A DNA stretch of 64,000 nucleotides. Origin: Aneurinibacillus terranovensis DSM 18919. GTDB taxonomy: Bacteria; Bacillota; Bacilli; Aneurinibacillales; Aneurinibacillaceae. This document shows positions 38,093 to 38,222 of this stretch, piece by piece (position 1 is the first letter of the stretch; the number at the start of each line of letters is the position of its first letter). The stretch is taken from assembly GCF_000430625.1 (NCBI RefSeq), contig NZ_AUMJ01000016.1:1-64000 (forward strand), given 5' to 3'. Under the pieces are notes generated by a model, which saw only the letters and a list, made by a program, of their open reading frames with translations, was not told where the DNA came from and did no database searches. Both the position numbers and the translations under genes were made by a program.

Positions 38093-38118
38093 AAAAAATC
38101 CTCCCGAAATAGGAGAAT
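38093..38118 (-). terminator. Riboswitch-coupled terminator
   Basis: On the minus strand ATTCTCC-tatttcg-GGAGGAT (one G-U pair) is followed by TTTTTATT. It lies between the c-di-GMP aptamer and cheX. Confidence 0.7.
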
Positions 38119-38131
38119 ATCCTTCTTAATT

Positions 38132-38222
38132 TCGGCAACCGGCGGCTTGCATAACATTTCTGTTCAGAAAACATTGTATCCCCTATGGCTTTGCGACCCT
38201 ATTTTTCAATAGGTGTGCCTTT
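38132..38222 (-). promoter_or_regulatory. c-di-GMP-I (GEMM) riboswitch aptamer
   Basis: Minus-strand blocks match the GEMM-I consensus in order: AAAGGCACACC, a GAAA-containing hairpin (CCUAUUGAAAAAUAGG), GUCGCAAAGCC, AUAGGGG, a variable P3 arm with paired CUGUU/AACAG-like arms, AUGCAAGCCG and CCGGUUGCC closing P1. The GCAAAGCC A-stack and the closing GGCA/UGCC pairing are both visible. It sits 70-160 nt upstream of cheX with a terminator between, so the operon is likely c-di-GMP controlled. Confidence 0.88.

Follow-up and report, generated by a model that had tools for sequence, protein, structure and literature searches.

The Hin-inverted H segment of Salmonella is about 1 kb long and contains the invertase gene together with a promoter directed outward at the adjacent operon. 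In C. difficile, flgB is preceded by Cd1, a class-I c-di-GMP OFF riboswitch, and by a flagellar switch that is inverted by RecV (PMC5386303). The cmrRST locus of the same species combines an invertible switch bearing a promoter (in the ON orientation) with a c-di-GMP riboswitch (PMC8844915), and phase variation of a c-di-GMP phosphodiesterase has been reported for pdcB (PMC9286219). For Bacilli, a report on B. thuringiensis describes Bc1, a GEMM-I riboswitch with terminators before the chemotaxis receptor gene mcpE, which hardly affected the downstream genes in vivo (PMC11218506).

The locus described here lies in a stretch of 64,000 nucleotides from Aneurinibacillus terranovensis DSM 18919 (NZ_AUMJ01000016.1, positions 1 to 64,000), hereafter called the window. 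The best explanation of its sequence, which we regard as fairly likely, is that a chemosensory operon lies behind two superimposed controls, a promoter that undergoes inversion (phase variation) and a GEMM-I riboswitch turned OFF by c-di-GMP; DNA flipping and c-di-GMP thus probably both gate its expression. The layout resembles the Hin segment in that a recombinase gene and an outward promoter-like site lie inside a segment of about 1 kb. Hin is a serine recombinase, however, whereas the window encodes a tyrosine recombinase (PF00589) with Xer-like sites, so that the segment would be Hin-like in its working without being a member of the Hin type. With flgB, the locus shares a class-I c-di-GMP riboswitch, predicted premature termination and an apparent tyrosine-recombinase inversion before a motility operon, here a chemosensory one. 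The flgB switch differs in that it spans 154 bp, is placed after the riboswitch and takes effect once transcription has been initiated; RecV has a further target as well, the cwpV switch (PMC5386303). In the window, by contrast, the segment of about 1.1 kb lies upstream of the aptamer and carries the promoter-like site. The recombinase of a RecV-type system lies outside the segment and serves several switches; here the gene lies between the two arms, which form the only site pair in the genome. The cmrRST locus is similar in having a promoter-bearing invertible switch plus a c-di-GMP riboswitch, but it has another target, it is promoted by c-di-GMP, and its switch is inverted by RecV (PMC8844915). 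The pdcB switch, with its phase variation of a c-di-GMP phosphodiesterase, resembles what is proposed for the window locus but has another target, and its recombinase was not known (PMC9286219). Bc1-mcpE shares the GEMM-I aptamer and terminators before a chemotaxis gene in Bacilli; as described, it concerns a receptor gene, without a cheA/cheW operon or an invertible element (PMC11218506). The combination of phase variation with a c-di-GMP riboswitch is already known from C. difficile loci; here the same logic would recur in Bacilli in another architecture, in which the switch itself encodes the recombinase and a whole chemosensory array follows. The features of the locus are as follows.

39369 to 39392, minus strand: right inverted-repeat arm, an inverted copy of the left arm (23/24 identical)
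39297 to 39325, plus strand: promoter-like TTGTAA-17-TAAAAT with TG, a consensus match in the stretch from the recombinase stop codon to the right arm
38324 to 39283, plus strand: intact tyrosine recombinase of 319 aa, enclosed by the repeats (PF00589)
38276 to 38299, plus strand: left inverted-repeat arm on the riboswitch side, core TCGTACAA-TGCAGG-TTGTTCG (repeat analysis)
38131 to 38229, minus strand: c-di-GMP-I (GEMM-I) riboswitch aptamer (RF01051), core and 3' GCCGAA kept, P3 altered
38104 to 38135, minus strand: predicted antiterminator (fold; complement versus shuffles)
38098 to 38118, minus strand: intrinsic terminator hairpin, then a T tract (terminator scan and folds)
37594 to 38061, minus strand: cheX, CheY-P phosphatase family (PF13690, 68.4 bits)
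37111 to 37554, minus strand: cheW (PF01584)
35453 to 37066, minus strand: mcp, 4HB-HAMP-MCPsignal (Pfam)
34954 to 35379, minus strand: second cheW (Pfam)
32902 to 34950, minus strand: cheA, complete, with Hpt, P2, dimerisation, HATPase and CheW domains (Pfam)
29514 to 32813, minus strand: MASE3-PAS-PAS-PAS-GGDEF-EAL gene, 1099 aa, intact (Pfam)
28938 to 29296, minus strand: cheY, with a frameshift near 29260 (three-frame translation)
27965 to 28779, minus strand: cheR, frameshifted, low end approximate (three-frame translation; truncated CheR match in Pfam)
27727 to 27950, minus strand: cheB remnant, receiver part only (three-frame translation)

The first-pass annotation had recognised a GEMM-I aptamer pattern in the interval 38093-38222 and had proposed a search with Infernal and RF01051. 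A cmscan of the window bore out the pattern: RF01051 matched full-length on the minus strand at 38131-38229, with 54.5 bits against a gathering cut-off of 35 (E = 6.7e-8), and the proposed interval takes in the terminator and the greater part of the aptamer. Our own covariance model, whose training set included the window aptamer, scored it at 57.8 bits. The genome has seven GEMM-I aptamers, and the one in the window scored the lowest (54.5 bits versus 76.4-84.4 bits for the other six). In the aptamer alignment, the GGC, the GAAA-capped hairpin, CGCAAAGCC and the 3' GCCGAA were kept, and one base of the conserved AAA was changed. The base at what we take to be the ligand-specificity position is G rather than A. 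Four model pairs are broken: one belongs to the P3 distal stem, and the other three, in P3, are kept in 20 of 20 comparison aptamers. The P3 loop of the window aptamer is longer. The window aptamer is the most diverged of the seven and may bind its ligand weakly. Two other GEMM-I aptamers of the same genome (L003:1501-1587 and L005:1501-1586) have AGC in place of GGC at the specificity position, a G-to-A change that we take to be a mark of cGAMP-sensing GEMM-Ib RNAs; the L003 aptamer sits before a chemoreceptor gene.

A terminator follows the aptamer at 38118-38098 on the minus strand, as had been claimed. In the predicted fold, CCGAAAU at the 3' end of the aptamer (38135-38129) pairs with AUUUCGG (38110-38104), which is formed by the terminator loop and 3' arm, and an AGGA/UCCU helix is nested inside. 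From GCCGAAAU to the T tract, the antiterminator and terminator folds are mutually exclusive and have the same predicted energy (-9.8 kcal/mol each). A complement of at least 7 nt was reached by 14 of 500 dinucleotide shuffles of the window leader, and a cruder shuffle gave the antiterminator complementarity in 23 of 400; by this measure, the putative antiterminator is only moderately unlikely to be due to chance. The leader as a whole folded no more stably than its shuffles (z = -0.38). The same complementarity between aptamer 3' strand and terminator was observed in the leader of another riboswitch-headed chemotaxis operon (L109, GGUUGCC to GGCAACC, 6/500 shuffles) and, in weaker form, in two more (L156 and L161), whereas the leaders of L058, L063 and L064, searched in the same way, had none. 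Without c-di-GMP, the aptamer 3' strand would be paired to a portion of the terminator, allowing transcription to continue; with c-di-GMP bound, the 3' strand would be held, the terminator would form, and cheX-cheW-mcp-cheW-cheA-GGDEF/EAL would not be transcribed. Because bound ligand would hold this strand and release the terminator, we predict that c-di-GMP turns the operon OFF. The earlier statement that the sign of the response could not be read was too cautious, since the antiterminator/terminator layout favours OFF.

The gene identities and the one-strand order cheX, cheW, mcp, cheW, cheA and MASE3-PAS-GGDEF-EAL given by the first-pass annotation agreed with the Pfam matches, and the best NCBIfam match of cheX was CheX NF041094, under the cut-off of that model. 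No terminator-like site was found by the terminator scan in the gaps from cheX through the GGDEF-EAL gene, and a single transcript is therefore plausible. The GGDEF, RxxD and EAL catalytic motifs are present in the GGDEF-EAL protein, as judged from alignment to the MucR and MorA structures and from sequence reading. If its EAL activity dominates, low c-di-GMP would lead to more EAL enzyme and thus to still lower c-di-GMP; because the operon includes this phosphodiesterase domain, an active circuit could reinforce itself. The operon does not end at the GGDEF-EAL gene; the broken cheY, cheR and cheB come after it. The feedback loop proposed earlier stands in one part, in that an aptamer and terminator head an operon with a c-di-GMP enzyme, but as a simple loop it is incomplete: the operon has lost intact copies of cheY, cheR and cheB, a sigma-A-like promoter directed at the aptamer was not recognised in the present orientation, and an apparent invertible element lies upstream. 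With these three genes broken, the array would have to rely on CheY and CheR encoded elsewhere, or is decaying. It is possible that the breaks are errors in the draft sequence.

The loss of cheY, cheR and cheB together with the diverged aptamer suggests partial decay in the window strain, and the whole locus could be a decaying relic that regulates nothing today, with its promoter facing away. The frameshifts in cheY and cheR, the truncation of cheB, the broken P3 pairs and the lowest score among seven aptamers all fit such a relic, as does the similarly frameshifted relative in Paenibacillus agricola, which is 83% identical over a 3.4-kb stretch from the mcp end through cheA. We nevertheless consider a relic unlikely, though a serious possibility, because the recombinase, both arms, cheX, both cheW genes, mcp, cheA and the 1099-aa GGDEF-EAL gene are all intact and the antiterminator/terminator balance is preserved. 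The window CheA itself has 83% identity to that of P. agricola and 72% to that of G015; within the genomes searched, no full-length CheA came closer than the latter, and its operon has no riboswitch.

Upstream of the aptamer, a 24-nt inverted repeat encloses the recombinase gene, and its arms match at 23 of 24 positions. In each arm, a 6-nt spacer separates two half-sites, which is the layout to be expected of crossover sites. The 21-nt arm core was found genome-wide only in the left arm and its partner, and a search for orphan target sites elsewhere in the genome gave one single site with one mismatch, with no fewer from a reversed-pattern control. R167, K196, H259, R262, H285 and Y294, which by established tyrosine-recombinase knowledge are the six catalytic residues (R-K-H-R-H-Y), are invariant across the aligned rows of the recombinase family. 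The gene is divergent from the operon, with its start codon 94 bases upstream of the aptamer. A multicopy, IS-like element was rejected, as the recombinase is present in a single copy in the genome. Beyond the right arm, an ORF at 39559-40260 joins the N-terminal part of an alanine dehydrogenase to a dCache-like sensor fragment and resembles a deletion chimera; a fragment of an ISL3-type zinc-ribbon transposase (40410-40724) adjoins it.

In the present orientation, no sigma-A-like promoter facing the aptamer was recognised in the 120 nt upstream. The best promoter score in the window leader was 7.5, compared with a mean of 8.3 for its own shuffles; of the 41 GEMM-I leaders scanned, at most three others scored lower. 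The promoter-like site at the recombinase-3' end of the segment now points away from the operon and would face the riboswitch only after inversion, with its -10 element then ending 113 nt ahead of the aptamer; taken alone, it is only a consensus match (p = 0.085). The stretch 38276-39392, roughly 1.1 kb, is thus an apparent invertible segment, and we infer that its own tyrosine recombinase flips it between the 24-nt inverted crossover sites. The assembled orientation, with the outward promoter away from the operon, would be phase OFF, and the inverted orientation, with the promoter aimed at the riboswitch, would be phase ON. The assembly of this one strain shows only the predicted OFF orientation. 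The operon might at present be transcribed from an undetected promoter, such as one recognised by a different sigma factor.

Relatives of the recombinase were sought in 200 genomes of the class. Fourteen genomes besides that of the window carried one with 56-77% identity, and the next matches had at most 37%. Thirteen of the 14 could be read, since the flanks in G061 (L177, L206) are masked by N and were left out. All 13 had perfect or near-perfect flanking inverted repeats of at least 20 nt, with a common arm core of TCG(T/C)ACAA-N6-TTGT(T/A/G)CGA or close to it, whereas the repeats flanking 14 XerC/D-like outgroup recombinases were not above shuffles. Across the family, an outward sigma-A-like promoter match was conserved in the recombinase-3' flank (mean score 9.93 versus 8.37 ± 0.20, 0/300 shuffles). 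The opposite strand of this flank gave a much weaker signal (6/300 shuffles), and the recombinase-5' flank gave no promoter signal (233/300 shuffles). The adjoining genes were EAL in six cases, HD_5 in three, chemoreceptor (MCP) in two, and GGDEF-EAL and cheW-cheA in one each, those at L211 and L212 being identified by tblastn only. The recombinase pointed toward its target in five relatives and away from it, as in the window, in eight; the two orientations thus occur across relatives, at different loci. Furthermore, in G026, a second and degenerate copy of the element (L204) has lost one arm, and its promoter is permanently aimed at a GEMM-I riboswitch and chemoreceptor gene, which is the arrangement that inversion would be expected to produce in the window. 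At L210:5470-9083, a recombinase element and an HD_5 gene have fragments of cheW, cheB and cheY as neighbours, which may be the decayed remains of a further chemosensory operon.

On this evidence, we give even chances to the broader reading that self-encoded invertible promoter cassettes of about 1.1 kb (tyrosine recombinase, crossover sites and outward promoter) serve specifically to phase-vary c-di-GMP phosphodiesterase and chemosensory genes across Bacilli, with the window cassette stacked on a c-di-GMP-OFF riboswitch. If true, the chemosensory array of the window would be subject to phase variation and would itself include a positive feedback acting on low c-di-GMP. The constant association of the 13 readable relatives with c-di-GMP-type enzymes or chemotaxis genes suggests that, in Bacilli, it is more common than has been appreciated for DNA inversion to program heterogeneity between cells in c-di-GMP and chemotaxis. 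In the papers covered by a literature search, there was no prior report of this recombinase family, which, with members in 14 of 200 genomes besides that of the window, provides a ready search handle.

Riboswitch-headed chemosensory operons occur elsewhere in Bacilli. GEMM-I aptamers head PAS-GGDEF-EAL, mcp, cheW, cheA and cheR in L063 and L064; EAL, cheW, cheA, mcp, cheR and cheB in L109; cheW, cheA, cheX and cheY in L058 (a GGC variant); and EAL, mcp, cheY, cheX, mcp and cheA in L156 and L161, which belong to a distant CheA clade. In the L109 family, 14 of 20 EAL loci scanned had an aptamer. Among the matches listed for 200 genomes of the class, GEMM-I and CheA places coincided only in the window genome and G161. 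As such operons recur in other Bacilli and yet few coincidences were listed, the arrangement of riboswitch and chemosensory array is uncommon but recurrent; the same search gave no prior report of a GEMM-controlled cheA operon in the papers that it covered. The aptamer-bearing CheAs are scattered on the CheA tree, requiring at least six changes, although L157 and L158 end at contig edges where the aptamer state is unreadable and the true number may be lower. An ancestral riboswitch in this array was not supported: it is absent from L106, which has the closest CheA relative, and from most of the others, and the aptamer-bearing CheAs are scattered. The operon at L156:2350-12485 and that of L161 have the order EAL-mcp-cheY-cheX-protoglobin receptor-cheA-cheW-mcp, found in a family of Bacilli, and their EAL protein has a C-terminal Spo0E-like domain. 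At L122:5180-7554, in a genome of the same order as the window genome, cheX and a chemoreceptor gene are immediately preceded by a GEMM-I aptamer, and the gene order is close to that of the window operon. TGTCGAA boxes, which we take to be the Spo0A-box sequence, lie near the promoters of the riboswitch-headed chemotaxis operons L058, L063, L064 and L109, in tandem in L063.

The aptamer and terminator in the window are real, and the operons in L058, L063, L064, L109, L156 and L161 have no recombinase, so the window could also hold an ordinary GEMM-I OFF riboswitch with an unrecognised promoter, upstream of which an unrelated recombinase element landed by chance. We judge this quite unlikely. 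TTGACA promoters precede the aptamers of L063, L064 and L109, whereas the window has no sigma-A-like promoter within 120 nt upstream; moreover, the recombinase family adjoins c-di-GMP-type enzymes or chemotaxis genes in 13 of 13 readable relatives, and its L204 copy adjoins another GEMM-I leader.

The ligand c-di-GMP might instead activate the operon, as GEMM-I ON switches are known, including Bc2 of B. thuringiensis (PMC4933901). This is very unlikely for the window, where the whole terminator comes after the aptamer and the would-be antiterminator strand is the conserved aptamer 3' strand. A small transposon-like mobile element, made of the recombinase and its terminal inverted repeats, rather than an in-place inverter, would explain why family members adjoin different genes in different genomes, but it is very unlikely given the single copy in the window genome, the constant association with c-di-GMP-type enzymes or chemotaxis genes, the conserved outward promoter and the crossover-site layout of the arms, with half-sites around a 6-nt spacer.

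Two further features were observed elsewhere in the window. A SAM riboswitch lies at 16240-16344 on the plus strand (92.3 bits), and the translations of 44193-49975 show a cluster resembling bacterial-microcompartment shell proteins together with an aldehyde dehydrogenase.
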